The notes under the pieces: model-generated
The model's input: the letters and a program-made list of their open reading frames with translations, nothing else
Databases searched by the model: none
What the model was told of the DNA's origin: nothing
Part shown: piece by piece, positions 1,846 to 24,867 of the stretch
Layout of the letters: every line of letters starts with the position of its first letter
Numbering within the stretch: position 1 is the first letter of the stretch
Made by a program: the position numbers and the translations under genes
Virus record (IMG/VR): IMGVR_UViG_3300044515_000040
Coordinates: 1 to 29,615 of that record
From: a virus
Length of the DNA: 29,615 bases
Reading direction: 5' to 3' (one strand)

Positions 1846-3017
1846 AGACAGACTTCCAGAGACTGTTCCGGGCGATCGGCGACGTCATGCTCGAGGCCTT
1901 GAGGCCGATCACGGCGAAGCTCGTCGAGCTCGAGGCCCGAAAGCCCGAGAAGGGTGAGCGCGGTGAGCCGGGCGCGAAAGGTGAACCCGGTGATCCCGGC
2001 GAACCGGGTATGCGTGGCGAACTCGGTGAACCCGGCGTGAAGGGTGACCCTGGCGAGAACGGCATCGTCGGCGAGCGAGGAGAGCCCGGCCTGAAGGGTG
2101 ACGTCGGCGATCGGGGCGAATCTGGCGTGAAGGGCGATTCGGGAGAGCGAGGCGAGAACGGCATCGCAGGCGAGCGTGGCGAGCCGGGCGTTAAGGGTGA
2201 TCCCGGCGAACCGGGTATGCGTGGCGAACTCGGTGAACCCGGCGTGAAGGGTGACCCTGGCGAGCGAGGCGAGAAAGGTATTGCCGGCGAGCGAGGCGAG
2301 AGTGGCCAGAAGGGTGACGTCGGCGAGCATGGCGCAATAGGAGAGCGAGGCCCGAAGGGTGACGCAGGCGAAGCCGGCGCTAAAGGCGATCCAGGTGAGA
2401 AGGGCGATGCCGGAGATCGCGGTGATCCTGGCGTGAAGGGCGGCACAGGCGAACCGGGTGTGAAGGGTGATGCAGGCGAGAAAGGCGATCGCGGCGAACC
2501 CGGAATGAAAGGCGATCAAGGCGAACCAGGCACGAAGGGTGATCGCGGCGACGATGGCGCTGATGGCGCCGACGGTGATCCTGGCGCTGATGGCAACGAT
2601 GGCAAGTCGATTACGGTAGACGACGTCTTACCGGCGCTGGACGGGGTCGTCGCAAAATGGATGCTCGAGGTCGAGCGACGCATCATGGACATGGCGCAGC
2701 GTGCCGTCGACGCGACGCCGAAACCTCGCGACGGCAAGGACGGCGTCGACGGGCTCAACGCCGACGAGTTTCAGTTCTGCTTCGACCTTGAGACACGCGT
2801 TTTCAGCGCGACGCACAAGGATCGCGTTCTGTTTTCGCAGCGCATCCCGCTCCCGAAGTATATCGACGTCTGGACCGAAAGCTTCGGACAGTACGAAGAG
2901 GGCTTCATCGTCACGTTCGGCGGTCACGGCTGGATCGCTAAGCGCGACACGACGTCGAAACCCGGCACGGACGATTCGTGGCAGCTGTTCGTCAAGAAAG
3001 GGAGGGACGGCAAATGA
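1842..3017 (+). CDS. Collagen-like virion protein with C-terminal head domain
   Basis: 391 residues in three parts. Residues 1-37 are a helical N-terminus that could nucleate trimers. From G38 to about residue 253 there are 72 uninterrupted Gly-X-Y triplets rich in GEP, GVK, GDP and GER, a collagen-type triple-helix sequence with acidic X and basic Y positions that can form inter-chain salt bridges. A helical segment with VEVERR-like charge (about 260-290) leads to a globular C-terminus containing FGGHGWIAKRDTTSKPGTDD and WQLFVKKGRDGK. That Trp-rich ending recurs in phage collagen-like proteins and may be a small carbohydrate-binding fold (inference). It overlaps both neighbours by ATGA. Likely a surface or neck fibre; a pure host-adhesion role is also possible. 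Confidence 0.85.
   Translation: MKTDFQRLFRAIGDVMLEALRPITAKLVELEARKPEKGERGEPGAKGEPGDPGEPGMRGELGEPGVKGDPGENGIVGERGEPGLKGDVGDRGESGVKGDSGERGENGIAGERGEPGVKGDPGEPGMRGELGEPGVKGDPGERGEKGIAGERGESGQKGDVGEHGAIGERGPKGDAGEAGAKGDPGEKGDAGDRGDPGVKGGTGEPGVKGDAGEKGDRGEPGMKGDQGEPGTKGDRGDDGADGADGDPGADGNDGKSITVDDVLPALDGVVAKWMLEVERRIMDMAQRAVDATPKPRDGKDGVDGLNADEFQFCFDLETRVFSATHKDRVLFSQRIPLPKYIDVWTESFGQYEEGFIVTFGGHGWIAKRDTTSKPGTDDSWQLFVKKGRDGK
1989..2057 (+). repeat. 69-bp exact direct repeat, copy 1, in the collagen-like gene
   Basis: Bases 1989-2057 are identical to 2196-2264. The offset of 207 bp is a multiple of three and of nine, so the Gly-X-Y register is kept. The repeated block encodes GDP-GEP-GMR-GEL-GEP-GVK-GDP-GE. 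Its perfect identity at synonymous positions, among otherwise diverged triplets, points to a recent internal duplication or recombination. Confidence 0.9.
2196..2264 (+). repeat. 69-bp exact direct repeat, copy 2, in the collagen-like gene
   Basis: Second copy of the block at 1989-2057. The flanking triplets differ: GENGIV follows copy 1 and GERGEK follows copy 2. The copies therefore sit in distinguishable surroundings, and recombination between them would delete or add 69 residues in frame. Confidence 0.9.
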
Positions 3018-6161: not shown

Positions 6162-6469
6162 CGCCGGACGAACTCTTTATTTGTCGAGTCGCTCTGGCGT
6201 ACGGCATAGCACCTTCTGAAGTCGAGGAGTTGGGCTGTGCTGATTACGATCTTCTGCAGCGCTATTGGAAAGAGGAACCTTGGGGTGCGTACCGGGACAA
6301 CGTTCACGCCGCCATCATCGCTCGCGAGATCAGGCGTGGGACGGTCAAGGGCGCGCATGCTCTCAAGGATTTCTTGTTGCAGACGGACGACAGACGGGTA
6401 CAGGAGGAACGCGGCGGATTTTTCGGCATGTTTAGGGCGATGGTAACTGGGAAGCGTAAAAATGGTTGA
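5853..6469 (+). CDS. Tail assembly chaperone, frameshifted long form (G-T-like)
   Basis: The 102-codon frame starting at 5853 is continued by a frame one base back that is open from 6092 to a TGA at 6467-6469. Translation after the shift reads TTLTPDELFICRVALAYGIA, then EVEELGCADYDLLQRYWKEE and WGAYRDNVHAAIIAREIRRG, a well-known T-domain pattern. There is no start codon near the beginning of that domain, so it must be made by a -1 shift. If the shift is at 6147-6153 the fusion is about 205 residues. The T part binds tail-tube subunits while G binds the tape measure. The stop lies within 4 bp of the proposed tape measure start. Confidence 0.85.
6147..6153 (+). promoter_or_regulatory. -1 ribosomal frameshift site (GAAAAAC)
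   Basis: In the starting frame the codons are GAA-AAA-CAA, and a one-base backward slip puts the A-site tRNA on AAA again before ACA. This is the only homopolymer run in the 66-base window (6092-6158) where the two frames are both open. It is not a perfect X-XXY-YYZ heptamer, because the P-site would re-pair as CGA, so the shift would rely mainly on tRNA-Lys slipping on AAAAA. The exact slip base is inferred. Confidence 0.6.
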
Positions 6470-6518
6470 TAGAGAAGCGAAGTCGCCGGCTCGAGCCCTC
6501 GTGGCGAGGGAGAGCTAA
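6462..6518 (+). CDS. Possible 18-residue leader peptide before tape measure
   Basis: An ATG at 6462 overlaps the G-T stop and opens MVDREAKSPARALVARES, ending at TAA 6516-6518, one base before the ATC at 6520 that begins the conserved tape-measure reading (IADLASLIVRLEAETSQY). It runs straight through the hairpin at 6489-6515. Translating it would melt the hairpin and deliver ribosomes to the tape measure start, a plausible coupling device. It may equally be chance. Nothing in the peptide itself suggests a function. Confidence 0.25.
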   Translation: MVDREAKSPARALVARES

Positions 6519-9500
6519 AATCGCGGACCTCGCCAGTCTGATTGTTCGGCTCGAAGCAGAAACGAGTCAGTATTCTGCCGCGATTCAGAAAGCGACCGAC
6601 CAAATCAGCGGATTCGCAGACACCGTCGGCTCGTCCGTCGCTGACGTCGCAAAGAATCTGCTCGGGCTCGAGGCGCTAAAGCAGGTCTTCGATTTCAGCG
6701 ACAACATCGTCAAGACGATGGCGAGCTTCGATCTGTTGTCACATGCGGTGGGCGCGACGACCGAAACGTTATCGCAGCTTAGTTTTGCCGGAAAACTAAC
6801 GGGCGTCGATGACATTGGCGCCGCGCTGGAGAAGATGGCGCGCTCGGTCGGTCAAGCCGAGATCGGAAACCAGAAGCTGATCGGCACGTTCTCGGCACTC
6901 GGCGTAAGCATTACCGACGCGAGCGGGAAGCTAAAATCTACCGACCAGCAACTGCTCGACATCGCCGATGCTGTGTCGAAGTACAACGATGGTCTCTCTA
7001 AGACCGCCGCGGTGCAGGCGATCTTCGGTCGCGGCGGGGCCGACTTCATCAAGTTCCTCGACCAGGGCGCAGAGGCGATCAAGGCTGCTCAGCAGGAGGC
7101 CATTGATCTCGGCGTGAGCATATCGGCTCCAGCGGCCAAAGCGGCGGACGAGTTCGAGAGCAACATGACGCGCATAGGCGCGGCGTTTCAGGGCGTCTTC
7201 TTCAAGGCGTTGGAGGAGGTGCTGCCGAAATTTATAGAAATCACCGACAAGATTGTCGAGTTTGCAAAGAACGCCGACAACACTAGGCCGATAGTAGAAC
7301 AGCTCGCTGCAGGATTTAAGATCATAGGCACGGTCCTGGTGATAGTCGGCACGGCATTCGAAGTCGTCGGGAAAGTAATCGGCCAGTTTGTAGGATCTAT
7401 CGTTCTTACGATCGAGGCCCTCGCTGATCTGGCGAACGCGTTCACTGATCCGATAGGGGCGATGCAAAAGTTTGCCAAAGAGCAAGTCGGTGTCATTGAA
7501 CAGATCAGTAATGCGTTCGCACATCCCGCTGACACAGCGAAAAAGTTTGTCAGCGATACACAAGACGCGCTCGACGGGATAGATAACGTACTCGAACATC
7601 CAATCGACTCGATAAAGAAGTTCTTCCAGACGCAGAAGGACGCTGTTAGCAGCGGACCGACGAGCGATGTTCTATCCACTCTAAAGGCTGGTTTGTCGGC
7701 GCTCAACGCAATGTGGGGCGATGCGAACGATCAGCTAAACGAGATCCACATCACGGCGAAGAAAATCAAGCCGGACCTCGTGCTTATCGATAACACTGCG
7801 CTCAAGGCAATGGAGAGCGCGATCGATGCCCTCGCCAAGCTCGACGATACGCTCAAGCAGCAGGTTGCGACGTACGGCTTGAGCGGCGCGGCGGCGACGG
7901 TCTACGACGTCACATTGGGCAAGCTGAGCGCGAGCGTCGACAAAGTCGATAATCTCAGTCCCAAACAGGCGCAGGCCGCGCTGGCAGCGCTCGAGAAGCA
8001 GGGCAAGCTGTCGAAGGCCGCGATCGACGAGATCAACGCGTCCATCGCTGCCGGCGTCCCCATCGGCGATGCGTTCAAAAAGTCGATCATCGACGAGGCG
8101 ACGGCTCTCGACCAGCTCAAAGCAGTGGACGCGCTGTCAAAGCTGGACGCTCAGCTGCTGACGATGACCGGGCACCTCGAGGACGCAGGGAAAGCGGCGT
8201 TTGACCTGGCTAACAGGCCGCTGCGCGTCACGATCCAAACGCAGCAGGACAAGACTACATTCAAGGGGCTTGATAACTCGCAGAGTGTCGCCCTGGCGAC
8301 CTCACAGCTCAACGATCTGAAGAGCCAGGCGATCACGATTAATGACGCGCTGGGCAAGAAGATCGCCGACGTCGACGCGGCGGCACTCGCGTCGGGTGAG
8401 GGTAACCTACAGGTAGCAGGTGAGGAGGCTGTCGCGCGTCAGGCCGCGATCTCGCAGCTCGAGGCCCTGTATGTCAAGGCGCAAGCGCTCGCCGAGGCGA
8501 CGGGCATGAAGTCTGCGGCCGAGCAGGCGAAGGCGTTGCAGAGCGCGATCGGCGCGATCCAGTTCAATCCCAAGATCGTTCAGGACGTCGACGCGGCGAC
8601 GGCGGCGCAGAAGAAGTTTACCGAGGCGACGCTCGTACAGAAGAAAGCGGACGACGATCTCTCTTTGCAGATGGCTGACCTAGCGAAGCAAAACGCTGAC
8701 GGTTCGCTCACCGATCTCGATTACATGGCCAAGCAGGACGACGCGCGTCAGAAAGCGATCGACCAGCTGACCGTGATCCAGGGACAGTATCTCGACCTTT
8801 ACAACAACAATCCCGGTAACGCGGCGGCGCTCGACCAGTACAAGAGGCTCGGCATCCAGATCGACGGTCTGCAGACGCAGATGGGCCAGCTCGCGAAGAC
8901 GGTACGCACCGACCTGACGGACTCGCTGACTAACGCTTTCGTGGGCTTCGCGACGGGGAGCGAATCGGCCAGCGCCGCGCTCAAGTCGTTCGTCGCCGAC
9001 TTCAGCAAGCAGATGCTTCAACTTGCGGCGAAACAGCTTTTCCAAAAGCTCTTCGAGTCGACGGGCATTTCAGCCGGCATCGATTCACTGTTCGGTGCGG
9101 CGACAAAGACGGCGGGTAGCGCGGCGTCGGGTGCGGCGATCGGGACTGCGATCACGACGGCGGCGACCGCGGGCGGAGCCACGATGGGTGGCGCCCTCGA
9201 GGCTTCGGGGACGCTGGCTGCCACGGCCATGGGGACCGCAATCGAAGCGGCTGGCACCGCAGCGGCTGCCGAGATGGCCGCGGCGATAGCAGGGTCCGGT
9301 GCCGCGAGTGGCGCAAGCGCGGCTACTGTCGTGGCCCTCGCCGCGGCCGGTGGCGGCCCGATCCCGGCGAATCAACTAACCCTGGTCGGCGAACTAGGTC
9401 CTGAGCTCTATGTCAGCGACCTAGGCGAGACGACGGCGGCGACGGCGACGAAGTCAGGTACGCAGATTCCCGATGACCTGATGCACGCGCACGTCATCGG

Positions 9501-10428
9501 GACGAACGGGCCGGAATACATCAAGCCCAACGTCAGCGGGTTCGTCGTCCCGAGCGACACGTTCTTAAAGGCGCTCGCGGATCGTGCCGCGCCTCGTGCG
9601 CTCCAGCCTATCCATGCCGCACCCGATGACGTCAAGGCCGAACAGGCTGAACCTGACGGCGGCCACCGCGGCGTCACGCAGGCCGCCGCCGGCATACGCC
9701 CGCCCGCACCTGTCGTCGATCTGATGCCCTTAATCGCGGCGCGCCTGCCGGCGCTGCAGACGCGTCTGTTCGCGCCGCCGCAGACGACGGCCGCTGAACG
9801 CGTTGAGCAGCCGGCCGGTCACGCGGCCGATGTCAGCGCCCCGATCCGGACGACCGTCGAGTCGCGTGGCGCGCCGTCGATCCAATTGCCGTCGCCGCCG
9901 TCGAACGTCATCGCCTTTCCCACGCCCACGATGCCTGCGTCGGGCCATGCCATGGCGAAGACACTCGACGTGGCATCTGAGCTGCCCTCGATCCCCGACC
10001 GGCTCGACGCCGAGGTGACCCGCGCCGACGCGCCCGAGGTACCTGCGATGCTCGACGAACCGACGTCGGCGATGATCATCAAGTTCGAGAAGATTGTGAA
10101 GAACGAGCAGCCGCCCATGCTCGACCCATACGAGTACGAGGCGTTGCTCACCGACCGGTACCTGCAGAAGCGCCAAGGCGGCGGACCGGTGAGCGCCGGC
10201 AAGCCCTACCTCGTCGGCGAGGGCGGACCCGAGCTCATGGTTCCCGACTCGTCGGGGACGGTGATGAACTCGTGGCAGACGCAGAACAATCAACCGAGCA
10301 CGATCGTTAACGTGAATAATCATTTTCTCGTTCAATCGCAGACGGGCAAGGTCGATCGCGCGTCGCAGGGTCAGATCGCGGCCAAGACGGGGATGAGCGT
10401 CCAGATGGCGTTAGCGAGAAACGGCTGA
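6466..10428 (+). CDS. Tape measure protein
   Basis: Up to 1,320 residues, by far the longest gene, directly after the chaperone pair. It sets tail length and is ejected with the DNA. At about 0.15 nm per residue it predicts a tail near 195-200 nm (rule of thumb). Visible parts: N-terminal helical segment (LASLIVRLEAETSQYSAAIQ), a hydrophobic zone around residues 280-325 (IGTVLVIVGTAFEVVGKVIG), long Ala/Gln/Lys helices, an Ala/Thr/Gly-rich stretch near 885-960, and a C-terminal part with two GGGP...VGE.GPEL blocks separated by a Pro-rich insert. The start is uncertain. TTG at 6466 touches the previous stop (TTGA), but the conserved N-terminus starts at ATC 6520 behind a GAGGGAGAG ribosome binding site. 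Confidence 0.92.
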   Translation: MIEKRSRRLEPSWRGRAKIADLASLIVRLEAETSQYSAAIQKATDQISGFADTVGSSVADVAKNLLGLEALKQVFDFSDNIVKTMASFDLLSHAVGATTETLSQLSFAGKLTGVDDIGAALEKMARSVGQAEIGNQKLIGTFSALGVSITDASGKLKSTDQQLLDIADAVSKYNDGLSKTAAVQAIFGRGGADFIKFLDQGAEAIKAAQQEAIDLGVSISAPAAKAADEFESNMTRIGAAFQGVFFKALEEVLPKFIEITDKIVEFAKNADNTRPIVEQLAAGFKIIGTVLVIVGTAFEVVGKVIGQFVGSIVLTIEALADLANAFTDPIGAMQKFAKEQVGVIEQISNAFAHPADTAKKFVSDTQDALDGIDNVLEHPIDSIKKFFQTQKDAVSSGPTSDVLSTLKAGLSALNAMWGDANDQLNEIHITAKKIKPDLVLIDNTALKAMESAIDALAKLDDTLKQQVATYGLSGAAATVYDVTLGKLSASVDKVDNLSPKQAQAALAALEKQGKLSKAAIDEINASIAAGVPIGDAFKKSIIDEATALDQLKAVDALSKLDAQLLTMTGHLEDAGKAAFDLANRPLRVTIQTQQDKTTFKGLDNSQSVALATSQLNDLKSQAITINDALGKKIADVDAAALASGEGNLQVAGEEAVARQAAISQLEALYVKAQALAEATGMKSAAEQAKALQSAIGAIQFNPKIVQDVDAATAAQKKFTEATLVQKKADDDLSLQMADLAKQNADGSLTDLDYMAKQDDARQKAIDQLTVIQGQYLDLYNNNPGNAAALDQYKRLGIQIDGLQTQMGQLAKTVRTDLTDSLTNAFVGFATGSESASAALKSFVADFSKQMLQLAAKQLFQKLFESTGISAGIDSLFGAATKTAGSAASGAAIGTAITTAATAGGATMGGALEASGTLAATAMGTAIEAAGTAAAAEMAAAIAGSGAASGASAATVVALAAAGGGPIPANQLTLVGELGPELYVSDLGETTAATATKSGTQIPDDLMHAHVIGTNGPEYIKPNVSGFVVPSDTFLKALADRAAPRALQPIHAAPDDVKAEQAEPDGGHRGVTQAAAGIRPPAPVVDLMPLIAARLPALQTRLFAPPQTTAAERVEQPAGHAADVSAPIRTTVESRGAPSIQLPSPPSNVIAFPTPTMPASGHAMAKTLDVASELPSIPDRLDAEVTRADAPEVPAMLDEPTSAMIIKFEKIVKNEQPPMLDPYEYEALLTDRYLQKRQGGGPVSAGKPYLVGEGGPELMVPDSSGTVMNSWQTQNNQPSTIVNVNNHFLVQSQTGKVDRASQGQIAAKTGMSVQMALARNG
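6489..6515 (+). promoter_or_regulatory. Stem-loop covering the tape measure ribosome binding site
   Basis: CCCTCG (6496-6501) pairs perfectly with CGAGGG (6505-6510) across a TGG loop, and outer GCTC (6489-6492) pairs with GAGC (6512-6515). The 3' arm contains the purine-rich stretch GAGGGAGAG that would be the Shine-Dalgarno for a start at 6520. Such a fold would hold translation low until ribosomes from upstream open it. There is no following T-tract, so it is not a normal terminator. Confidence 0.5.
9349..9420 (+). repeat. GPEL block 1 in tape measure C-terminus
   Basis: Encodes GGGPIPANQLTLVGE followed by LGPELYVSD. A diverged copy lies at 10177-10248 (GGGPVSAGKPYLVGE then GGPELMVPD). 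Many tape measure proteins carry a single block of this type near the C-terminus. Here two copies flank about 250 residues of Pro/Ala-rich sequence. Confidence 0.7.
10177..10248 (+). repeat. GPEL block 2 in tape measure C-terminus
   Basis: Second, canonical copy of the block at 9349-9420, followed by the usual SSGTVM and a terminal domain ending in QSQTGKVDRASQGQIAAKTG. Similar at protein level but clearly diverged in DNA, so an old duplication or an insertion into a duplicated end. Confidence 0.7.
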
Positions 10429-11060: not shown

Positions 11061-13373
11061 ATGGATGTGCTCGCCGATACGACGTATGAGAGGTTCCCAG
11101 AATGCCCCGGGTTCGGGTTCACGGTTGAACCCAGGTACCTGACGAAGGCCATCGAGCGCGAGGGTGGACAGGAGCGCGTCGACCGTCGCTGGGACCGCAC
11201 GCTCGCGTTTTTCACGGCCGTGCCCACCGGGAATCGCGACGCCGACGTGATTCAGAATCTACTCATTTTTTGGCACGCCGTCGGCGGGATGAGTGGTCGA
11301 TTTAGATTCAGGGACTGGACGGATTACAAAAGCTGTAAGACGAATCAGACGCCGACGGCTTTAGATCAGCCTTTCGAGGTCGTCGACGCCGGCTACCAGA
11401 TGATCAAGCGGTACACGGCGGGGCCGATGACGCAGGATCGAGAGATCTACTGCCCTATCGGCTCGACGATTGTCGTGGCGAACACCCTGGGCGCAACGCA
11501 GACGGACTGGACGCTCGACGAAGCGACAGGCCTGCTAACGCCGGGTGGTGCGTTTGTCGGCACGCCGGGATCCTGGGGTGGAGAGTTCGATTTGCCGTGT
11601 CGGTTCCTGACCGAGTACTCCGTGGTCGTCGTCGACGGCAAGGGCATCCAGAGCGGGTCGTTTACCTTACGCGAGTGCCGGCCTAACGAGATCGGAATTG
11701 GAGGCGGAGGAGGTGGTGGCGGAGGTGGTGGTGGCGGCAGCGGTGGCGTCGTCGCCGGCCTGCCCTTCCTGATGCCCGATCTAGACACGATATTCGCCTC
11801 GCCGAAAATCGTGTTCGCCCACTACTTCCCGTCATTCCCGCTGTCGATCGACAACCTCGTGGCGACGGCCGACTACTACGAAGACGGTTATCTGGCGCCT
11901 GGCGGTGAAAGTGGCGACCACGTCGAATACGGCGGATTTTTGCGGCAACGGCCGTTGCCCGTCGCAGTCGGCGACCCGACCACGTACGTGCGCGACAACA
12001 TGGCGACCGAGGTTCGCGTGGCGATGGCGCGCGGCATCACGGTGTTCGCCATCGACGTCCTGAACCTCGCCAATGCGCTGAGCGGGATCGGGCACCTGCA
12101 GAACTTACTGGCGGCAGCGGCGGCGGTCGACAGTCGATTCAAGGTCATGGTGACGCTCGACATGTCGGCGGGCGGCCTGGGCTCGATCAGCGAGTCGGAT
12201 GCCGCATCGATTATCCAGGCGGTCGCGACATCGCCGGCCATATTCAAGCTGGGCACGGGGGAGATCGTGTTCTCAGCGTTCCAGGCCAACCTGCAGAGCG
12301 TATCGTGGTGGACGGCGATGATCGGAATCCTGACGACCGCCGGCATCCCGACGAAGTTCGTTCCCATATTGCTGGGCGCCCCGTCTGACGCCGGCTCGCT
12401 CGATCCGGTGAGCTACGCCGTCGGCCCGTGGGGTACGGCTACACCGAGTGCGGCGATCGCTCTGCAACCTAACCCGGCGATTGCGCACGGACACGGCCTC
12501 AAGTACTTGATGCCGATCTCGCAGCAGCAGTTCAGGATGAAAGACCAGATCTTCTGGGAGGCCAACAACAGCGAAACCATGCGCAAGTCGTGGGAGAGCG
12601 CGATCAACGGCGACTCCGACTGGGCGCAGTACGTGACGTGGAATGACTTTTCGGAGTCCAGCCAGATCGAGCCGTGCACGGACGCTACGCTCAATCTCAA
12701 CATCGGCAACGGGTTCTACGATCTCGGCGCGTACTACGCCGCGCGGTTCCTGACGGGTTCGTGGCCGACCATCACCAATGATCGCCTGTACTGCTTCTAT
12801 CGGCGCATGCCGTTGGGCGCCGCTCATCCCGATCAGGCCGATAATTTCACATGTGTCGGCGGCACGCCGTCAAACCTCATCGAGGTCGTCGCGATATTGA
12901 CGGCGCCGGGCACCGTGTCGATCAGTGTCGGAGGCAGTTCGGCGTCGTTCTCCGCACCCGCCGGACTGAGCGTGTACACGGTGCCGCTGGTTGCCGGCAC
13001 TCCGCTACTCGGGCTCGTCCGCGGCTCGACGGCGGTGATCTCTACGTTGGCCGCTCTGCAGATCTACGGCTACACGGGCGATCCGGCCGGCACGCTCGAC
13101 TACACCTACTGGAGCACGAGCGTGGCGCCGACGCCTCCGGCGCTCGACATGGAACCGTCGCCAGACCTGCCCGACGCGGAAGAGGGCGTCTCTTACACGG
13201 AGACGATCACCGGCAGCGGTGGTGTATTGCCGTACGTGTGGGGCTCAACTGGTGTCCCGGTGTGGGCCACAGAGACTATCAGCCTAGATACGACGATGTG
13301 GACCATCACCGGTATGCCGCCGATGAGCACAGAGATGGACACGATCGTACTCACACTCACGGATAGCTCTTGA
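11061..13373 (+). CDS. DUF2460-GH71 fusion: tail-tip alpha-1,3-glucanase-type depolymerase
   Basis: 770 residues. 1-212 is a second DUF2460 domain (FPECPGFGFTVEPRYLT...SGSFTLRECRPN). A linker of 13 consecutive Gly plus SGG follows, then about 240-595 reads as glycoside hydrolase family 71: PKIVFAHYFPSFPLS, ITVFAIDVLNL, FKVMVTLDMS (D367), IVFSAFQ, KYLMPISQQQF, YVTWNDFSESSQIEP (D529, E532) and YYAARFLTGSWPTITNDRLY. The TWND..ES block with its acidic pair is the hallmark of GH71, whose known members cut alpha-1,3-glucan. About 600-690 is a beta-sandwich-like region. The end (YTETITGSGGVLPYVW... MWTITGMP) resembles putative Ig (He_PIG) repeats. The DUF2460 part should anchor the enzyme in the tail tip. 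Activity and substrate are inferred from family. Confidence 0.87.
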   Translation: MDVLADTTYERFPECPGFGFTVEPRYLTKAIEREGGQERVDRRWDRTLAFFTAVPTGNRDADVIQNLLIFWHAVGGMSGRFRFRDWTDYKSCKTNQTPTALDQPFEVVDAGYQMIKRYTAGPMTQDREIYCPIGSTIVVANTLGATQTDWTLDEATGLLTPGGAFVGTPGSWGGEFDLPCRFLTEYSVVVVDGKGIQSGSFTLRECRPNEIGIGGGGGGGGGGGGGSGGVVAGLPFLMPDLDTIFASPKIVFAHYFPSFPLSIDNLVATADYYEDGYLAPGGESGDHVEYGGFLRQRPLPVAVGDPTTYVRDNMATEVRVAMARGITVFAIDVLNLANALSGIGHLQNLLAAAAAVDSRFKVMVTLDMSAGGLGSISESDAASIIQAVATSPAIFKLGTGEIVFSAFQANLQSVSWWTAMIGILTTAGIPTKFVPILLGAPSDAGSLDPVSYAVGPWGTATPSAAIALQPNPAIAHGHGLKYLMPISQQQFRMKDQIFWEANNSETMRKSWESAINGDSDWAQYVTWNDFSESSQIEPCTDATLNLNIGNGFYDLGAYYAARFLTGSWPTITNDRLYCFYRRMPLGAAHPDQADNFTCVGGTPSNLIEVVAILTAPGTVSISVGGSSASFSAPAGLSVYTVPLVAGTPLLGLVRGSTAVISTLAALQIYGYTGDPAGTLDYTYWSTSVAPTPPALDMEPSPDLPDAEEGVSYTETITGSGGVLPYVWGSTGVPVWATETISLDTTMWTITGMPPMSTEMDTIVLTLTDSS
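11458..11550 (+). repeat. 93-bp exact repeat shared by the two DUF2460 genes, copy 2
   Basis: Partner of 10828-10920. The gene starts are 633 bp apart but the tracts are 630 bp apart, so one codon has been gained or lost upstream between the copies. Confidence 0.93.
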
Positions 13374-13383
13374 GGAGTTTCTG

Positions 13384-14955
13384 ATGCCTAGCTCGATCAC
13401 CAAGACATATCACCTGAATGTTGTCCCGGCAGGACTCCCTCTGACGGCGACGCCGACGTTCTCGCCGGGCGCAGGCTCGTACTCTGGTACGCAGACAGTG
13501 GCGATCTCGTGCGCGACGCCGAGTTCAACGATCTACTACACCACTGACGGCTCGACGCCGACGACGGGAAGCACCGTGTATTCCGCGACGATCACGGTGG
13601 GCGCAAACGAAGTAGTCAAGGCGATGGCGACCGCGACGAGTCACGCGGACAGCGCAGTCGGCAGTGCGTCGTACATCATCGGCGGCGGTGGCGGCAATCT
13701 GATGATGTATTCGAATGGCGTGATCGACACCAGCAAATGGCCGACGGCGAACGACTACTCTTACGGGGCGACGCCGGCGCACGACTACCTCTACACCGGT
13801 AGTCCACAACCCGGGCACACGTACTCGAACCTGGTGCACGCGGCGAGCGGATGGCAACAGGCCACCAACTGGGCGGTGTCGCCGCCCAACGGTCAGGACA
13901 TTTCCCAGTACACGTATTTGCAATTCGACATCAAGCTTCAGGCGGGGTCGAACATAGGAATATCCGGTCACGCGACGCGCTCGACCGGCAACGACATCAA
14001 CGTCTGCGCATATTGCAATTCGATTGCCAACATACCGGGCATCGGCACGCTCACGCCGGGCGTTTGGCTGTACGCGAAGAAAATGCCGACGTCGTTCATC
14101 GGCCTGCTCGGCTCCGGCAATTATTACAAATACGCGATGCAGGACAACGGCAATTATCCGGTGGGCTTAAGTTTCCAACTGGATAACATTCAATGGGTTG
14201 CCGGAAACCTCGCGTGGGTTCATAACGGCGATCCCGAGGTCGCGGCGCTGCAGTCGGGGTGGACGGACGCGAGCACCGGTCTGACGGCGAACTACGCCTT
14301 CAACCCGACGACGGTCAACTCAGCGCTGTACTCATGCAATCAGCCACCGCAGGCTAACTCTTTCACCGGCACGCTGGTCGGTCCGGCATTGACGGTGTCG
14401 GGACTCACTGATGTGATCCACCCGGGACAGCAACTGGTTTACTTCCAACCGGGTGCGCAACCCGTGGTGTGGGGCGCGATCACGAGCGGCTCGGGCGGCT
14501 CGTGGAACGTCAGCTCGCCGGGAGGCAACTTCTCCGGTCAGAGCTGCTGCACGACGTGGCTGCAGTCGCAGATGCAGGCGATCAAGCTCACCATGACGGC
14601 GGCCGGCGCCAAGTGGCGCGTGAACTATGCGAGTGGTTTTGATCTCACGCCGCATACTCACCTCACGTTCGCCATCACACCGACGAAAACCGGTAACGCT
14701 TGGAAGGTGCAGTATTACGACACCTCGGGCGCCGCGACAGGCACGCCGGTCGTAATCTCGCCGGGGAGCCTGACGTACTGCGACGCCGACTACGGCATCA
14801 ACTGGAGCAGCGGAGCCCCGAACTACACCGTGTACGAGATCCCGCTCGCCGACCTCGGAGTGAGCGGCGCGACGATCGGCGGTTTTAGCATTCAGGACAA
14901 CAGCGGCAACACGACGAATGTGGCTTACCTGTCGGCGCCGGCGCACCACTCGTGA
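13384..14955 (+). CDS. Chitobiase-C-like plus carbohydrate-binding tail protein
   Basis: 523 residues, ATG at 13384 with a GAGGAG ribosome binding site 5 bp upstream. Residues about 15-98 (TPTFSPGAGSYSGTQTVAIS, then IYYTTDGSTPTTGSTVYSAT and VVKAMATATSHADS) match the chitobiase/beta-hexosaminidase C-terminal domain (CHB_HEX_C), a small Ig-like module common beside polysaccharide enzymes. A GGGGG linker follows. The remaining 410 residues look like two beta-rich modules, about 108-270 and 285-520. Each has Asp/Asn/Trp-rich strands and phrases such as YLQFDIKLQAGSNIGISGH and THLTFAITPTKTGNAW, suggestive of jelly-roll carbohydrate-binding domains, but I cannot name a CBM family. No catalytic motif is evident. 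Position after the GH71 fusion suggests co-operation on a surface glycan. Confidence 0.7.
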   Translation: MPSSITKTYHLNVVPAGLPLTATPTFSPGAGSYSGTQTVAISCATPSSTIYYTTDGSTPTTGSTVYSATITVGANEVVKAMATATSHADSAVGSASYIIGGGGGNLMMYSNGVIDTSKWPTANDYSYGATPAHDYLYTGSPQPGHTYSNLVHAASGWQQATNWAVSPPNGQDISQYTYLQFDIKLQAGSNIGISGHATRSTGNDINVCAYCNSIANIPGIGTLTPGVWLYAKKMPTSFIGLLGSGNYYKYAMQDNGNYPVGLSFQLDNIQWVAGNLAWVHNGDPEVAALQSGWTDASTGLTANYAFNPTTVNSALYSCNQPPQANSFTGTLVGPALTVSGLTDVIHPGQQLVYFQPGAQPVVWGAITSGSGGSWNVSSPGGNFSGQSCCTTWLQSQMQAIKLTMTAAGAKWRVNYASGFDLTPHTHLTFAITPTKTGNAWKVQYYDTSGAATGTPVVISPGSLTYCDADYGINWSSGAPNYTVYEIPLADLGVSGATIGGFSIQDNSGNTTNVAYLSAPAHHS

Positions 14956-15854
14956 AACCGATTCCCAGTCCACTGCAGGCGCACCTCAACGGCGACACGA
15001 CGACGCTGGCCCTGTGCTGGGCTATCTTAAAACGCAACGGCGACTACATCCGCGGGACGACGCACGACCGTGACGTGACGATCTCGTCGGGTAGCTACGC
15101 CGGGACGTATAGGGCGAGCTCGAATATCACGCCGTCGAACGTCAAGAGCAATAGCGACTTGTCGGTCGACAACCTCGACGTGACGGGCGCGTGGGCGGAT
15201 AACACGATACGCGTCGACATCACGCGCGCCGACATCGAGGCGCGCAACCTCGACTTCGCTTCCGTCAGGACGTTCACTGTCAACTGGCAGGCTCCCGACG
15301 ACGGCCAGATCCCGATGCGCAGCGGTTACCTGGGCGCGATCCCCTACGATTCTAGCGGCGGGTATACCACGCAGGTTCGCGGGCTCGCGCAGCTGCTGCA
15401 GACGAACATCGTGCAGACGTACTCCGACAGGTGCACGGTCAAGCGCCTGGGCGACGCGCGCTGCGGCGTCGACGTGGCGTCGCTCTCGATCACGGCGACG
15501 GTGACGAGCGTGGTCTCACGGCGCGAGTTCACGGTCAGCGGGATCGGCGCGCAACCCGCCGGGTACTTCTCGCTGGGCAACCTCGTCGGCCTGACAGGTG
15601 ACAACGCCGGGTTTCTGCGGCAGATCAGGATCGACGACGTCTCATCGGAGACCGGCCATGTGTCGCTATTCGGACCGTTCCCGATAGACGTCGCCATCGG
15701 CGACACGTTCACGATGTCACCGGGCTGCGATCGCCTGCCGGCGACGTGCAGGGATAAGTTCGACAACTGGCACAACAACCGTGCCTACGGCGTGCTGATT
15801 CCGGGCATCGATCTGCTGCTCGCCGGACCGGCCGGCCAGATGTCGACGCCATGA
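14952..15854 (+). CDS. DUF2163 tail-tip protein (hub-type)
   Basis: 300 residues. MKPIPSPLQAHLNGDTTTLA, the WAILKRNG and TTHDRDV segment, the NSDLSVDNLDVTG block and the conserved C-terminal part (VQTYSDRCTVKRLGDARCGVD, then PGCDRLPATCRDKFDN and PGIDLLLAG) identify DUF2163 / TIGR02218 with its C-terminal phage BR0599-type domain. In gene-transfer-agent-like tails this is the trimeric hub below the distal tail ring. Conserved Cys pairs (CTV...CGVD and CDRLPATC) are present; in related tails they can hold an iron-sulfur cluster, which is inference here. GTG start overlaps the previous stop (GTGA). The end overlaps the next gene by ATGA. Confidence 0.9.
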   Translation: MKPIPSPLQAHLNGDTTTLALCWAILKRNGDYIRGTTHDRDVTISSGSYAGTYRASSNITPSNVKSNSDLSVDNLDVTGAWADNTIRVDITRADIEARNLDFASVRTFTVNWQAPDDGQIPMRSGYLGAIPYDSSGGYTTQVRGLAQLLQTNIVQTYSDRCTVKRLGDARCGVDVASLSITATVTSVVSRREFTVSGIGAQPAGYFSLGNLVGLTGDNAGFLRQIRIDDVSSETGHVSLFGPFPIDVAIGDTFTMSPGCDRLPATCRDKFDNWHNNRAYGVLIPGIDLLLAGPAGQMSTP

Positions 15855-16291
15855 CGCCCGTATCTACGCAGTCGCTAATCGCCCAGGCACGACGCCTCGT
15901 CGGCGTCCCGTATGCGCACCAGGGTCGCAGCGTCCACGGGATCGACTGTATCGGATTCATCGCGATCTCTGCCACTAGCGCGGGTGTTGATCTAGTGAAG
16001 CTGACAGGACTAGAGGACAGGCGTGACTACGGACGAAAGCCTACGTCTCACCTGCTGTCGCTGGTTGCTCGGTCGTGCACGCGCGTCCGGGTGACAGAGC
16101 CCGGCCTGATGATCCTTTTCAGGTTTCCTAACGAGCGCGCGCCTCAGCATCTGGCGATACTTACCGATACTAATACGATCGTGCACGCTGACGCGAAGCG
16201 TGGTTGCGTCGTCGAGCACGGCTACAGGGGACAGTGGTTGCGATGGACGCACAGTCTTTGGCACATTCCGGGGGTGATGTATGGCGCATAG
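15851..16291 (+). CDS. NlpC/P60-type tail peptidase
   Basis: 146 residues. The N-terminal half has SLIAQARRLVGVPYAHQGRS followed by GIDCIGFI with the nucleophile C33. The second half has the His block PQHLAILTDT (H100) and IVHADAKRGCVVEHGYRG (H112), giving a complete Cys-His-His triad of the NlpC/P60 fold. It corresponds to TIGR02219 (gene-transfer-agent ORFG14-like), always found after DUF2163, and probably cuts peptidoglycan peptides when the tail tip reaches the wall. It overlaps the following cupin gene by 11 bp. Confidence 0.9.
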   Translation: MTPVSTQSLIAQARRLVGVPYAHQGRSVHGIDCIGFIAISATSAGVDLVKLTGLEDRRDYGRKPTSHLLSLVARSCTRVRVTEPGLMILFRFPNERAPQHLAILTDTNTIVHADAKRGCVVEHGYRGQWLRWTHSLWHIPGVMYGA

Positions 16292-16769
16292 TAAGTTTCG
16301 AAGCGTGAGAGAGTTCGCGCGCTGGTTCATGGCTAGGCCGATAGATTTCAGTCACGCCCCGCACGACGGGATCTCGGTGTACACGACAGAGGGAGGGGTC
16401 GTCAGCAGCCTGATCCTGTACCGCGACGCTCCCTTTCAGGCCGAGCTGTTCTTCGGCGTCGGCCCTGGGTACTTCCCAGATCACAGTCACCCGCATGTCG
16501 ATTCGATCGAGGTAGTGATAAGCGGAGGCGCGGATTTCACTCTTCGAGGGCAACATGTCATAGACCCGGCGCGCTTACTGCTCGTCTCTGACACCGGCGC
16601 GCTGCAGGTCGCAGGCGCCCGTGTTCGCATACGTCCTGGTGTCTTACACGGGGCGAATGTCGGCCCCAAGGGTGCGGCGTTTCTTTCTCTTCAGCACTGG
16701 CTTGAAGGGGTTGCGCCGACCAGCGTCGGTCTCGACTGGGAAGGCCCATCACACATAGAAGTTAGATGA
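16281..16769 (+). CDS. Cupin-fold protein inside the tail-tip operon
   Basis: 162 residues. Motif 1 reads GPGYFPDHSHPHVDSIEVVI with H68, H70, H72 and E77. Motif 2 reads RIRPGVLHGANVG with H123. These are the positions of the 2-His/Glu + His metal site of cupins. Segments before and after are beta-rich, as expected for one cupin barrel. It starts at ATG 16281 within the peptidase gene and ends with an ATGA overlap on the tip gene, so it is firmly part of the tail-tip operon. Cupins bind metals and small molecules or sugars, with very varied activities. No reaction can be assigned. It might be a structural or sugar-binding piece of the tip, or an enzyme acting on a host or virion glycan. Confidence 0.78.
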   Translation: MAHSKFRSVREFARWFMARPIDFSHAPHDGISVYTTEGGVVSSLILYRDAPFQAELFFGVGPGYFPDHSHPHVDSIEVVISGGADFTLRGQHVIDPARLLLVSDTGALQVAGARVRIRPGVLHGANVGPKGAAFLSLQHWLEGVAPTSVGLDWEGPSHIEVR

Positions 16770-19700
16770 GCAACGCTGGGCAGATTATTCTCGATATTGT
16801 AGGCGCCGTCGCCGGTTACTTCATCGGCGGTCCGACGGGTGCGCTGTATGGGCTCGCCCTCGCGAGCGGCGCCGGGCAGTTCTTATTTCCCACGCAGCTG
16901 CCGCCGGTCACGGGCCCGCGAATCACCGATCACAACACGACGACATCCGCGCTGGGCGATCCCGTCATCATCGGCTACGGCACGTTCATGTCGTCGGGCA
17001 CCGTGCATTTTCTGGCCGACCTGATCGAACACGCGACGACGACGCAGCAGGGCGGAAAGGGTGGCCCGACACAGACGTCGACGACGTTCAGCTATACGCA
17101 GTCGATTGGCATCGGCCTGTGTGAGACGACGAGCATGAACGGTGTCAACACGCCGATTATCGGCATCCAGCGAGCCTGGGAGAACGGCGAGCTCGTCTAC
17201 GACACGCGCCCGCAGCAACCCGGCGAGTCGGCGTCAGACTATAACAAGCGCGCCGCGTACACGGCGAAGTACGCGAGCACGTTCGTCCTCTACCTCGGGA
17301 CAGAGGACCAGGAGCCCGACCCGACGATCGAGCTGCAGCAGGGCGCAAACACGCCGTTCTACCGGGGACTGGCATACATCGTCTATCCGGACCGCGCGCT
17401 GCGCACCGACCAGGGCCTGCGACACCCGACCTTCAAGTTCGAGATCCTCAAAGCCGCGACAGTCGCACCAGAGGTAATTTTTCCGACGTTTCTGCCGGGC
17501 GCCAATAACGCGAACCTGCAGACGAACATGATCGCCGCCGACACGACTTATGGTCGCTACTACATATGGAACGCGACGACCGGTCACTTCGCGGTGCTCG
17601 GATTCAATATGTTTGACAACACGCAATTCGTCGAGAACGACACGCTGACGGGCTTCGCCCCGCTGGGTGGCGTCGGCCTGGCGGTCGCACCCGACGGATT
17701 CGTGCTCGTCACATGGTTTGACAGCGTGTCTACGGCGTTGATCGCACGACTAGATCCCTTGACGCTGAGCATCGACGGCGGACCGAAAGGATACAACGCT
17801 AGGGGAGTCGACTGGACGAGCTACGCGACGGCGACAGTCAACTTCGGTATGGGTTCGGTATACATCCTGGCGGCTGTCGGCGTGCTGCAGGAGATAACTC
17901 TGATAGATACCGGCTCGCTGGGTCAGATAGTGGCTTACACGATATATCCTCATCCTATAATTACTAGCGCGCCGAACGAGTCGGGCTGTGCTGTGTTCTG
18001 GGTTATCTCGAACACGCCCTCTACCGGACCGACCGGCGGTAACGTTGCGATTGTCAAGATTGAGATATGCGACACCTTGACTACTGCGTTATGGCTGCCC
18101 GATACAGATTATGCAATCGGAAACAGGGTCTTCAACGGTTCGAACAAATATGTGTGCAAACACGCCGGGACGTCTGCGTCGAGCGGCGGTCCCATGGGTA
18201 CTGGCAGCGACATCCACGATGGCAGTGTGATATGGAAATATATAGTCGTCGGTGGCGATACGCTGACACACACCTTCGCGCCGTCGGAGTTCGATCCTCT
18301 CTGGACATGGGTCAGTACGATAGGCGACCTGCTCGTCGACCTGAACGACGGGCACGTGATGTTCCGGGTGGCGGGTGGCGGTTCCGGTGCGACCAACACG
18401 GCATACGTCCTGAAATGCGACGGCAACACCGGCGCGATCGACTGGATCTCTCCCGTCATCGGAGCGGCTAACTACAACTTTGGGACGAGCCAAAACCAGA
18501 TCGCGAACAACATCTGGTGGCTGGCGGATAACCCGCCGGGTCTGTCGGGGTATTACCGCATAGACGTCGTGACGGGCGCCGTCACCATCGTGAGTCTGTC
18601 GTCGCTCACCGGTGGCGGCTCGCAGGTCGGCGCGCAGGTGACGAGTTCGGGCGGCGGTGGTGCGATACTCGCGCCGCTCGTCGGAGGACCCGCCGGCAGC
18701 TCGCCCGGCTGGTCGCTGATATTGCCGGAGGCCTCGCTCCCCGGCCAGGTCAGGATCGCCGACATTGTCGCCGACCTGTGCGATCGGTCAGGTCTCACTT
18801 CACACGACACGTCGTCTTTGGGCGATGAGTCTGTCGACGGCTACATGATCGCGTCCACGCCGATGATGGCGCGCGACGCGATCGTGCCTTTGCGATCGGT
18901 GGGCTTCTTCGACTCCTGCGAGACCGGCGACACGATGCGGTTCGTCCGGCGCGGCGGCGTGCCGGCGATGACGCTGCTGACGACAGACATCGGCGCGTAC
19001 GAGACGGCCACGACGGAGGATCCGGCGCCGGCCAACGCTGTCTCGAACACGATGGAGTCTGACCTGCCACAGCAGATCCGACTGACGTACACGTCGCCAT
19101 CGCGTGACTACCAGCCGGGACAGCAACTGTCGCTCCCACGGTTCGACACGATGTCGGACCAGCTCACCGACGTGCAGCTGGGTGGTATATGTATCGACGA
19201 TGATCAGGCCGCGCAGGCCGCGGAGATCCTGTGGAACGACGCGTGGGCGTCGGATCACACGTACACGTTCGCCGTCGATCAGAGCAAGGCTGCGCTCGAG
19301 CCGACGGATGTAGTGCTCGTGCCGATGGTCGACACACTGATGCGCGTGCGCATACTCGCCATCGACGATGCGTCTCAGATCATGCGCACGATGACCGCGG
19401 TGAGCGACGACGACGGCAACTACGTCTCGCGGGCGATCGCGGCCCCGGTCCCGTACAGGGTGACGATGCGGTTCTACGCGGGCAGTTCGCTGATACTCAT
19501 CGACGCTCCACTGCTGCTCGACTCGAACGACACCGGCCGCACGAGCGCACCGCTCTATTCTGTCGTCTACCCGACTAACACCGACACATGGACCGGCGCG
19601 GCGATACTCGAATCTGATGATGCGGGCGCGACGTTTACGAACGTGGCGACGGCGACGGGCGCGGCGGCGACTGGGCAGGCGACGACGGCCTTAGGAGACG

Positions 19701-20461
19701 TCGCCAATCCGTTCCTGACCGACACGACGAATAGTGTGACGGTCAAGATGGCGGCGGGCGCGACGCTGCCGGCATCGGTCACGACGGCACAGCTGCTCAA
19801 CGGTGCCAACGGCGCCGCGTTGATCAACGCCGACGGCAGTGTCGAGATATTCCAGTTCCGCGACGTCGCGGTCGTCAGCGCCGACACAGTGACGCTCTCG
19901 TACCTGCTACGCGGTCGACGCGGCAGCGACGAGATGACCGGCGGACACGCTGTCGGCAATCGCTTCGTCATGCTCAATCTGCCGGGTACAGTGCAGAAGA
20001 CGAACATCGCCATCAGCGACCTAAACACGGCGCTGCAATGGAAGGCCGTCGGGTCAAGGGATACCATCGCCAGCGCCACAGTCGTGCCGTTCACGACGGT
20101 CGGTCGCTCGCTGATGCCGCGCGCCCCATGGAACACGCGTACCATTCTGTCCGGATCCGACATCCTCATCAACGCGGACCGTCGCTCGCGCATCGAGAAC
20201 GACTCGCCGATCAGCTTTGCGAGCCCGACGCTCGCGCTCAACGAGGACAGCGAGGCGTACCAGGTCGATGTCTACGATGCCCCGGGAACGAGCGTCCTGA
20301 GAACGCTATCCGGCGCGTCGCTGCCGATCACATATCCAGCTGCTGACGTCGCCGCAGATTTCGGCGGCACGCCCGCCAACCTCTGGCTCGCCGTCTACCA
20401 GATGTCCGGCGAGGTCGGCCGGGGCTTCACACACAAGGTCAAAACAGGAGTCCCAACCTAA
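16766..20461 (+). CDS. Tail tip/host-specificity protein (GTA Orfg15-like) with large insertion
   Basis: 1,231 residues. The Gly-rich hydrophobic N-terminus (ILDIVGAVAGYFIGGPTGAL), GDPVIIGYGTFMSSG and WENGELVYDTR match the large tip proteins that follow NlpC/P60 in gene-transfer-agent-like tails. The family core resumes at RIADIVADLCDRSGL (about 661), MARDAIVPLRSVGFFDSCE, the block near 770-880, and LLRGRRGSDEMTGGHAVGNR (about 1048). Between roughly 235 and 660 lies an insertion of some 425 residues with repeated strand-turn-strand units, suggestive of a beta-propeller. It includes a CBM5/12-like DTDYAIGNRVFNGSNKYVC module (about 448-490). The tip protein sits at the distal end of the tail and is the prime candidate for receptor recognition; the insertion is the likely specificity element. 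Confidence 0.85.
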   Translation: MSNAGQIILDIVGAVAGYFIGGPTGALYGLALASGAGQFLFPTQLPPVTGPRITDHNTTTSALGDPVIIGYGTFMSSGTVHFLADLIEHATTTQQGGKGGPTQTSTTFSYTQSIGIGLCETTSMNGVNTPIIGIQRAWENGELVYDTRPQQPGESASDYNKRAAYTAKYASTFVLYLGTEDQEPDPTIELQQGANTPFYRGLAYIVYPDRALRTDQGLRHPTFKFEILKAATVAPEVIFPTFLPGANNANLQTNMIAADTTYGRYYIWNATTGHFAVLGFNMFDNTQFVENDTLTGFAPLGGVGLAVAPDGFVLVTWFDSVSTALIARLDPLTLSIDGGPKGYNARGVDWTSYATATVNFGMGSVYILAAVGVLQEITLIDTGSLGQIVAYTIYPHPIITSAPNESGCAVFWVISNTPSTGPTGGNVAIVKIEICDTLTTALWLPDTDYAIGNRVFNGSNKYVCKHAGTSASSGGPMGTGSDIHDGSVIWKYIVVGGDTLTHTFAPSEFDPLWTWVSTIGDLLVDLNDGHVMFRVAGGGSGATNTAYVLKCDGNTGAIDWISPVIGAANYNFGTSQNQIANNIWWLADNPPGLSGYYRIDVVTGAVTIVSLSSLTGGGSQVGAQVTSSGGGGAILAPLVGGPAGSSPGWSLILPEASLPGQVRIADIVADLCDRSGLTSHDTSSLGDESVDGYMIASTPMMARDAIVPLRSVGFFDSCETGDTMRFVRRGGVPAMTLLTTDIGAYETATTEDPAPANAVSNTMESDLPQQIRLTYTSPSRDYQPGQQLSLPRFDTMSDQLTDVQLGGICIDDDQAAQAAEILWNDAWASDHTYTFAVDQSKAALEPTDVVLVPMVDTLMRVRILAIDDASQIMRTMTAVSDDDGNYVSRAIAAPVPYRVTMRFYAGSSLILIDAPLLLDSNDTGRTSAPLYSVVYPTNTDTWTGAAILESDDAGATFTNVATATGAAATGQATTALGDVANPFLTDTTNSVTVKMAAGATLPASVTTAQLLNGANGAALINADGSVEIFQFRDVAVVSADTVTLSYLLRGRRGSDEMTGGHAVGNRFVMLNLPGTVQKTNIAISDLNTALQWKAVGSRDTIASATVVPFTTVGRSLMPRAPWNTRTILSGSDILINADRRSRIENDSPISFASPTLALNEDSEAYQVDVYDAPGTSVLRTLSGASLPITYPAADVAADFGGTPANLWLAVYQMSGEVGRGFTHKVKTGVPT

Positions 20462-24148: not shown

Positions 24149-24319
24149 GTGACTGATATTGAAAAACAGGCGCAGGCCTCACTCGACGCAGAAACCGCCA
24201 AAGCAAAAACCTGGTTTGCAGCGAATCGCGAGGAAGCGATCGTGCTGGTTTGCATCTCGTTGGCAGTCGGATTGCTGCTCGGCATGCTGGTCGGCTACAT
24301 CATGCGCGGGCACGCATGA
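24149..24319 (+). CDS. 56-residue membrane protein before endolysin
   Basis: A small gene with a GTG start at 24149 and an AGGAGA site. The sequence MTDIEKQAQASLDAETAKAK is a charged helix. It is followed by TWFAANREE and one strong membrane helix (about 33-52, IVLVCISLAVGLLLGMLVGY) with a positively charged end (IMRGHA). The stop overlaps the endolysin ATG (ATGA), tying it to the lysis operon. A single membrane span plus amphipathic helix fits a holin accessory, an antiholin or a general small membrane protein. There is no homologue I recognise with certainty. Confidence 0.65.
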   Translation: MTDIEKQAQASLDAETAKAKTWFAANREEAIVLVCISLAVGLLLGMLVGYIMRGHA

Positions 24320-24867
24320 TCCTGGTCAGTGATTTGATAGACGGCCTGATCGCGCGCGAGGGGACAATCTTCACGGATCGGCCGGACGACAAGGGCGGAC
24401 CGACCTGCTGCGGGGTCACGCTTGAGACGCTGCGTGCTTATCGAGCGCCCGCGGCCACGTCGGTTGACGATCTGCGCAAGCTTAATCCGCAGACGGCACG
24501 CCCTGTCTACCAGCACGTGTTTGTCGACGCGCCCGGTTTCGGTCAGATCGCGGACCACAACCTGGAGGCGCTGGTGGTCGATGCCGGCGTTCAGCATGGC
24601 ACTGTAGAGGCGTCAAAGATGGTGCAGCGGGCCGTCGGCGTCTTTCCCGACGGCCATCTAGGGCCAGTATCGCTCGCCGCAATCAATTCGCACGATCCCT
24701 TGTCACTGCGCATGCTGGTGTGCGGCGCGCGCATCCGGCTCTATGGCGCGCTGGTGACGCATGACGCGAAGCTCGCGCTGGCAAAGCTCGCTGGCTTTGA
24801 ACTGCAGGCCGACAACGCTTTGGGATGGGCCAACAGAATCGCGCAATTTGTCGAGGCGATTGCGTGA
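24316..24867 (+). CDS. Endolysin, GH108 muramidase with C-terminal peptidoglycan-binding domain
   Basis: 183 residues. LIDGLIAREGTIFTDRPDD followed by GGPTCCGVTLETLR is the hallmark of GH108 (secretion-activator/TtsA-type) lysozymes, with E15 as the catalytic Glu in REG. The C-terminal part (NLEALVVDAGVQHGTVEASK, then VGVFPDGHLGPVSLAAIN) matches the PG_binding_3 domain usually fused to it. It cuts the glycan backbone of peptidoglycan at lysis. No signal peptide or membrane anchor is seen, so it depends on a holin. ATG at 24316 is chosen over upstream in-frame GTGs because of the family N-terminus and the ATGA overlap. The C-terminus is basic-poor and ends in QFVEAIA. Confidence 0.93.
   Translation: MILVSDLIDGLIAREGTIFTDRPDDKGGPTCCGVTLETLRAYRAPAATSVDDLRKLNPQTARPVYQHVFVDAPGFGQIADHNLEALVVDAGVQHGTVEASKMVQRAVGVFPDGHLGPVSLAAINSHDPLSLRMLVCGARIRLYGALVTHDAKLALAKLAGFELQADNALGWANRIAQFVEAIA

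Follow-up and report, generated by a model that had tools for sequence, protein, structure and literature searches.

The window, by which we mean the whole 29,615-nucleotide stretch of viral DNA analyzed here, carries a run of tail genes in which two DUF2460 genes are placed between the genes for the tape measure and the baseplate hub (Table 1). The first encodes a plain distal tail (Dit) protein, and its TAG stop is immediately followed by the ATG of the second, which encodes a DUF2460 domain joined to a GH71 domain. The fusion reading frame is unbroken, with 770 codons and a stop codon at 13,371–13,373. Pfam placed DUF2460 (PF09343) on residues 11–195 with an E-value of 3.7e-30 (105.4 bits; cut-off, 30.4) and GH71 (PF03659) on residues 304–660 with an E-value of 1.7e-31 (109.8 bits; curated cut-off, 34), the latter spanning positions 8–374 of a 375-position profile. 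The N-terminal block at approximately residues 235–303 lies outside the PF03659 match, yet it can be aligned to bacterial GH71s. The linker glycines are encoded by mixed GGA, GGC, and GGT codons. The Ig-like tail at the C-terminus had no Pfam match and is of low confidence in the AlphaFold2 model. Among solved structures, those closest by sequence to the DUF2460 half were the Dit of RcGTA (6tba, E 1.6e-17) and its counterpart in the marine phage R4C (8gtc, E 1.7e-12), and those closest to the GH71 half were the fungal enzymes Agn1 (8yfh, E 3.1e-12) and AnGH71C (9fnf, E 1e-6).

An initial annotation of this gene had described a DUF2460 tail mount, a 13-glycine linker, and a complete-looking GH71 domain with a TWNDFSES block (D529 and E532) and the AHYFPSFPLS, FAIDVLNL, and LMPIS blocks. 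The mount is borne out by the PF09343 match, the Dit structures, and the position among tail genes; the linker and all four blocks were found as described, the AHYFPSFPLS block within FAHYFPSFPLS, and the Pfam match covers nearly the whole GH71 profile. We consider the GH71 family assignment and the tail location well supported.

Table 1 Features of the fusion gene and its surroundings in the window
Feature	Position	Strand	Basis
Tape measure protein	6466–10428	+	PHROG tape-measure families, best E 4.7e-22
Plain DUF2460/Dit protein, copy 1, 210 aa	10428–11060	+	PF09343, E 2.2e-30
DUF2460–polyG–GH71 fusion protein, 770 aa	11061–13373	+	ORF, Pfam, PDB sequence matches
DUF2460 domain, Dit copy 2, residues 11–195	11091–11645	+	PF09343; Dit structures 6tba, 8gtc
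Apparently mobile cassette (poly-Gly, GH71, Ig-like tail, partner gene), 3263 bp	11693–14955	+	DNA match to L022
13-glycine linker, residues 214–226; 5′ boundary of the cassette	11700–11738	+	Sequence; DNA similarity to L022
GH71 (beta/alpha)8 barrel, residues ~250–565	11808–12755	+	AlphaFold2 model; Foldseek
Predicted catalytic DxxE dyad in TWNDFSES (526–533): D529 (12645–12647), E532 (12654–12656)	12645–12656	+	Sequence, alignment
GH71 C-terminal beta-sandwich, residues ~575–663	12783–13049	+	AlphaFold2 model; PF03659 match to residue 660
C-terminal Ig-like tail, residues ~690–770	13128–13370	+	By inspection only; conserved in L022
Cassette partner, 523 aa: Fn3-like CHB_HEX_C_1 domain and unmatched C-terminal part	13384–14955	+	PF13290, E 3.3e-18
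Baseplate hub protein (GTA g13-like), 300 aa	14952–15854	+	PF09931, E 4.1e-44; PF09356, E 2.4e-16
NlpC/P60 tail peptidase (GTA g14-like)	15851–16291	+	PF00877, E 1.7e-8
Megatron-like baseplate protein (GTA g15-like)	16766–20461	+	NF048004, E 7.5e-111, below its cut-off; PF13550, PF23666

The duplicated Dit and its neighborhood

Copy 1 and the DUF2460 half of the fusion are 80% identical. The fused half is nearer to its counterpart in a 67-kb phage contig (L002; 89% identity) than to its own neighbor, so the Dit duplication is probably older than the split of these phages. Judged by its score against TIGR02217 (the Rcc01695 family), 69.7 bits for a cut-off of 136.65, the fused DUF2460 is a distant relative of that subfamily, outside its membership. 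In RcGTA, Dit forms one hexamer between the tail tube and the baseplate, and its C-terminal Arg209 touches the baseplate (PMC7296036); the enzyme of the fusion sits on this same end.

Four sister phages (L003, L004, L005, and L108) have, in the sequence examined, a single DUF2460 gene and no GH71. Where GH71 is absent in this way, the hub has an extra C-terminal domain of approximately 375 aa, a pattern that fits the swapping of host-surface modules. These hubs are 682–688 aa long, compared with ~300 (for example, L003:6627–8693 and L108:5671–7719). By eye, the added domain is barrel-like and may be another tail enzyme; that of L108 had no Pfam or PDB match.

Several other genes of the window deserve mention. 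The megatron-like protein matches RcGTA-type models chiefly in its C-terminal half (~650–1226), and Pfam returned no match to a GTA TIM-barrel domain in it. A 162-aa gene between NlpC/P60 and megatron (16281–16769) had no Pfam or PHROGs match; small tail-tip genes of L002, L003, and L108, which bear a histidine-rich, cupin-like motif, resemble it by eye. The gene directly after the portal gene (1842–3017; 391 aa) encodes long stretches of collagen-type Gly-X-Y repeats (PF01391, E 1.4e-38). Near the contig end, 28519–29250 on the minus strand encodes a family-2 glycosyltransferase (PF00535, E 4.7e-9), and L105 also carries a glycosyltransferase-like gene, as seen by eye.

Fold, active site, and apparent transfer of the GH71 domain

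The structure prediction that the initial annotation had suggested returned a GH71 fold with an unbroken catalytic block. In the AlphaFold2 model of the fusion, for which 30 sequences from the window and the loci were used, the barrel and sandwich have pLDDT values mostly of 80–98, with dips in the barrel at approximately 441–443 and at 531–544, a loop that starts within the catalytic motif. The DUF2460 half was poorly predicted, with values mostly of ~40–60 before residue 100. Foldseek searches of the PDB gave six best matches that were all GH71 (E 9.7e-23 to 4.0e-20; TM 0.74–0.79 by target), followed by GH99. An identity as GH99 was rejected, as the better fold matches are all GH71 and the dyad is DxxE, with Asp first, as in GH71, and not the ExxE of GH99 (PMC12394665).

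TWNDFSES aligns with TWNDYGES of Agn1, and the barrel strand equivalent to strand 8 ends at residue 524. In AnGH71C, the catalytic Asp265 and Glu268 are essential and belong to the loop that follows strand 8, and a C-terminal beta-sandwich is packed on the barrel, as predicted here; across the two enzymes assayed, substitution of the dyad lowered activity by 200- to 15,000-fold (PMC12394665). The dyad was kept in all 85 GH71 rows that we aligned (the window and 84 loci). Among the three tail-fused copies, pN/pS was 0.27–0.33, which shows purifying selection across GH71, barrel included.

The two tail-fused relatives reveal how the domain is mounted elsewhere. The L002 contig has the same two DUF2460 genes and the same in-frame fusion (1267 aa), with 71% identity to the window in GH71; poly-Gly and lectin/CHB_HEX domains take the place of the Ig-like tail and the partner gene. 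In L022, a locus on a 132,772-bp contig, GH71 is joined through a 21-glycine run to a Big_1-containing tail-region protein. The tail of L022 differs from that of the window (its tape measure belongs to phrog_24), and no DUF2460 was found on the contig. Positions 11693–14955 of the window are 74.8% identical in DNA to L022:7946–11205. This similarity begins at the glycine codons and stops at the stop codon of the partner gene, which defines a cassette of poly-Gly, GH71, Ig-like tail, and partner. The partner proteins are 82% identical; the structure model of the window copy had a mean pLDDT of 31.6, with few relatives available. Since the mount in L022 is, by sequence, unrelated to DUF2460, the cassette appears to move between unrelated tail proteins. 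A tandem-paralog mount in L022, like that of the window, was not supported, the neighboring Big_1 proteins being not clearly paralogous (E 0.065).

Outside the cassette, the window resembles the 17-kb locus of L022 in DNA only over a short stretch of a GH108-type lysozyme gene. This stretch covers 24181–24495 of the window (ORF 24250–24867) and L022:17045–17362 at 73.5% identity, and its presence in an otherwise unrelated locus suggests either exchange beyond the cassette or overlapping hosts. The contig that bears L022 (also L142 and L151) holds two GH71 genes ~71 kb apart and two distinct lysozymes, one of GH108 and one of lambda type; it represents either a phage of large size or an assembly chimera.

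A viral branch of GH71 and its bacterial relatives

Protein-pattern and catalytic-motif scans of IMG/VR identified eight GH71 domains on seven contigs, window included (one of them, L141, from a putative virus). Three are fused to tail proteins and five stand alone (~430–480 aa), and all eight keep the DxxE dyad. A weak match in L021 was dropped, as no GH71 ORF is present there. In our trees, which contained no fungal rows, the viral domains form one clade (100/99) with two branches, one tail-fused (100/100) and the other stand-alone (99/97), and with three proteobacterial GH71s as sister rows. Some stand-alone genes lie beside lysis genes: that of L142 adjoins the lambda-type lysozyme, and that of L136 comes ~3.3 kb after a phage lysozyme (E 3.7e-40), with which it shares a gene run. 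In L134, small genes form a run that looks much like this one and includes a putative lysozyme-like gene.

The initial annotation knew of no characterized phage tail enzyme of this family, and our searches agree. The 50,697 deposited phage records gave no match to the tail-type GH71 even at E ≤ 1 and none to the stand-alone type at E ≤ 0.01, so a known isolate as the source was rejected; no GH71-like structure was found among viral structures, and a literature search found no paper on phage GH71. Many roseophage DUF2460 proteins (phrog_2913) are labeled 'glycoside hydrolase' in deposited annotations. This label looks inherited and does not count as evidence of an enzyme; their match to the fusion covers DUF2460 only.

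Scanning genome contigs with two phage GH71s gave no match; relatives were found once a bacterial GH71 was added to the query. The closest cellular GH71s are encoded by a single Gammaproteobacteria MAG, in two genes (L025 and L026) that are 50% and 47% identical over the whole domain. They flank EpsE and EpsF (above NCBIfam cut-offs), EpsG (just below), and EpsL (below), in a cluster with a WcaI-family glycosyltransferase and with a flippase and more glycosyltransferases nearby; by its gene content, this neighborhood is an exopolysaccharide (EPS) biosynthesis cluster. A Methylocapsa GH71 has a possible repeat-unit polymerase (below cut-off) and an FkbM methyltransferase in its vicinity, a weaker case, so that the EPS link comes from one MAG with two GH71 genes. 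GH71 is rare in the orders of these relatives (1/296 and 1/298 over the cut-off). DUF2460 relatives, at no more than 38% identity, are commoner in the class of Methylocapsa (51/385) than in that of the Gammaproteobacteria MAG (4/369). A recent acquisition from fungi is disfavored, as the fusion domain aligns with an actinobacterial GH71 at 37% identity over 433 residues and the nearest kin found are proteobacterial, in trees built without fungal rows.

It is this gene context of the bacterial relatives, beyond the family name alone, that points to EPS as the target. The initial annotation had described GH71 as an alpha-1,3-glucanase family known mostly from fungi and some bacteria. This activity has been demonstrated for fungal enzymes only, with characterized GH71s cleaving the alpha-1,3-glucan of fungal cell walls; bacterial members were uninvestigated according to a 2025 study of the family (PMC12394665).

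Proposed function and alternatives

We consider it likely that the fusion is a tail-mounted depolymerase that cuts host EPS during adsorption. The whole-domain GH71 matches, the dyad, the purifying selection, and the position in the tail operon argue for this reading, as do the L002 fusion, the cassette on another mount in L022, the EPS-cluster relatives, and the hub domain of the sister phages. The RcGTA Dit hexamer (PMC7296036) and the evolved Dits of lactococcal phages (PMC10688798) offer precedents. We infer activity and substrate, since the sources searched held no characterized bacterial or viral GH71, and likewise incorporation into the virion, ring geometry, and the role in adsorption.

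In the proposed scheme, the Dit gene would have been duplicated in tandem, with copy 1 staying the ordinary tail-tip ring and copy 2 gaining a flexible C-terminal poly-glycine tether and a GH71 from a lineage adjoining bacterial EPS genes. By analogy with the hexameric Dit of RcGTA, the Dit half of the fusion would dock in or beside the distal tail ring, and the tail tip would then be surrounded by as many as six GH71 domains. Through the inverting mechanism of GH71, with Asp529 as the presumed general base and Glu532 as the general acid, the enzyme would hydrolyze an alpha linkage, probably an alpha-1,3-glucosidic one, in host EPS or capsule, and this cleavage would let the baseplate reach the outer membrane. 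The Fn3-like partner, which travels with the enzyme, probably aids binding or mounting. Where Dit meets the hub, a C-terminal extension could cause a clash if the tether did not point outward. The DUF2460 half is poorly modeled, and the assembly of copy 2 into a ring is hypothetical; copy 2 may either share one ring with copy 1 or form a second.

It is also conceivable, if unlikely, that GH71 acts mostly after lysis, with spare or tether-clipped copies freeing the progeny from the EPS matrix. The stand-alone viral GH71s, which are the sister clade and lie near lysozyme genes in L142 and L136, would suit such a role, and a GTA tailspike is reported to detach and degrade biofilm (PMC13420450). 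However, the enzyme is fused to Dit here and to a different tail-region protein in L022, so mounting on the particle is the simplest reading. Loss of catalysis, which would leave GH71 as a carbohydrate-binding adhesin, has a parallel in the evolved Dits of lactococcal phages, which bear carbohydrate-binding domains and not enzymes (PMC10688798); we regard it as improbable here, given the dyad in every viral copy and the selection over the barrel.

A target outside the host, with the enzyme or its partner keeping the particle attached to alpha-1,3-glucan of the habitat, whether fungal or not, would agree with the fungal cell-wall substrate of the characterized GH71s (PMC12394665). The phage domains nevertheless group with bacterial GH71s, near the EPS-cluster enzymes (again in trees without fungal rows), and we find such matrix adherence very doubtful. 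The least credible explanation is an artifact, arising from an assembly chimera or from a frame error in the glycine-rich tract. G-rich linkers are error-prone and this virus contig comes from a metagenome, but the same in-frame fusion in L002 and the parallel one in L022 contradict it. Indeed, this recurrence in two other phage contigs, the E-values, the PDB matches, and the purifying selection indicate that the fusion is not due to chance.

Parts of the depolymerase reading have precedents: depolymerases carried on tails are already known, as are Dits to which carbohydrate modules have been added and the combination of a TIM barrel (PF23845) with DUF2460. With the fungal enzymes Agn1 and AnGH71C, the fusion shares a full-length domain of (beta/alpha)8 barrel and beta-sandwich and a DxxE after strand 8; it differs from them in its bacterial-type sequence, its lack of a secretion signal, and its phage tail mount. 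The EPS-cluster GH71s of the MAG, unlike the phage fusion, are chromosomal and have, by eye, a signal-like or lipoprotein-like N-terminal segment. The Dits of RcGTA and R4C (DUF2460, Rcc01695, TIGR02217) have the same domain and the same hub, NlpC/P60, and megatron neighbors, whereas here Dit is duplicated and the second copy bears a C-terminal enzyme. The evolved Dits of lactococcal skunaviruses likewise combine Dit with an extra carbohydrate-active module and aid adsorption to EPS-bearing lactococci (PMC10688798), but theirs are binding domains inserted in a single Dit, in contrast to the predicted C-terminal enzyme on a second Dit. Non-contractile tail sheath proteins (NCTSP; PF23844-PF23845-DUF2460) of alphaproteobacterial prophage or GTA-like loci (L128–L130) also unite a TIM barrel and DUF2460 in one protein; there, the barrel is N-terminal, belongs to another Pfam family, and has no glycine tether, and Pfam found neither PF23844 nor PF23845 in the fusion. 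Finally, RcGTA TspA and phage tailspike depolymerases open a path through EPS or biofilm with a tail-borne enzyme (PMC13420450), in the form of trimeric tailspikes rather than a GH71 barrel on Dit. No source searched described a phage-borne GH71, one mounted on a duplicated Dit, or one in a glycine-bounded cassette.

On balance, we lean towards a dedicated viral GH71 lineage, in which a poly-Gly cassette jumps between unrelated tail scaffolds and a stand-alone enzyme lies, in some cases, beside lysis genes. Such a lineage would give the first viral GH71 on record and the first glycanase mounted on Dit, directed at an alpha-1,3-linked proteobacterial exopolysaccharide. That the cassette begins at the glycine linker shows a way for an enzyme to pass between unrelated tail proteins. 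For environmental proteobacteria coated in EPS, a compact and modular enzyme mounted on a duplicated Dit offers a clear way to test how phages gain access to the cell. If active, it would provide a new source of alpha-1,3-glucanase and a marker of hosts coated in such glucans.
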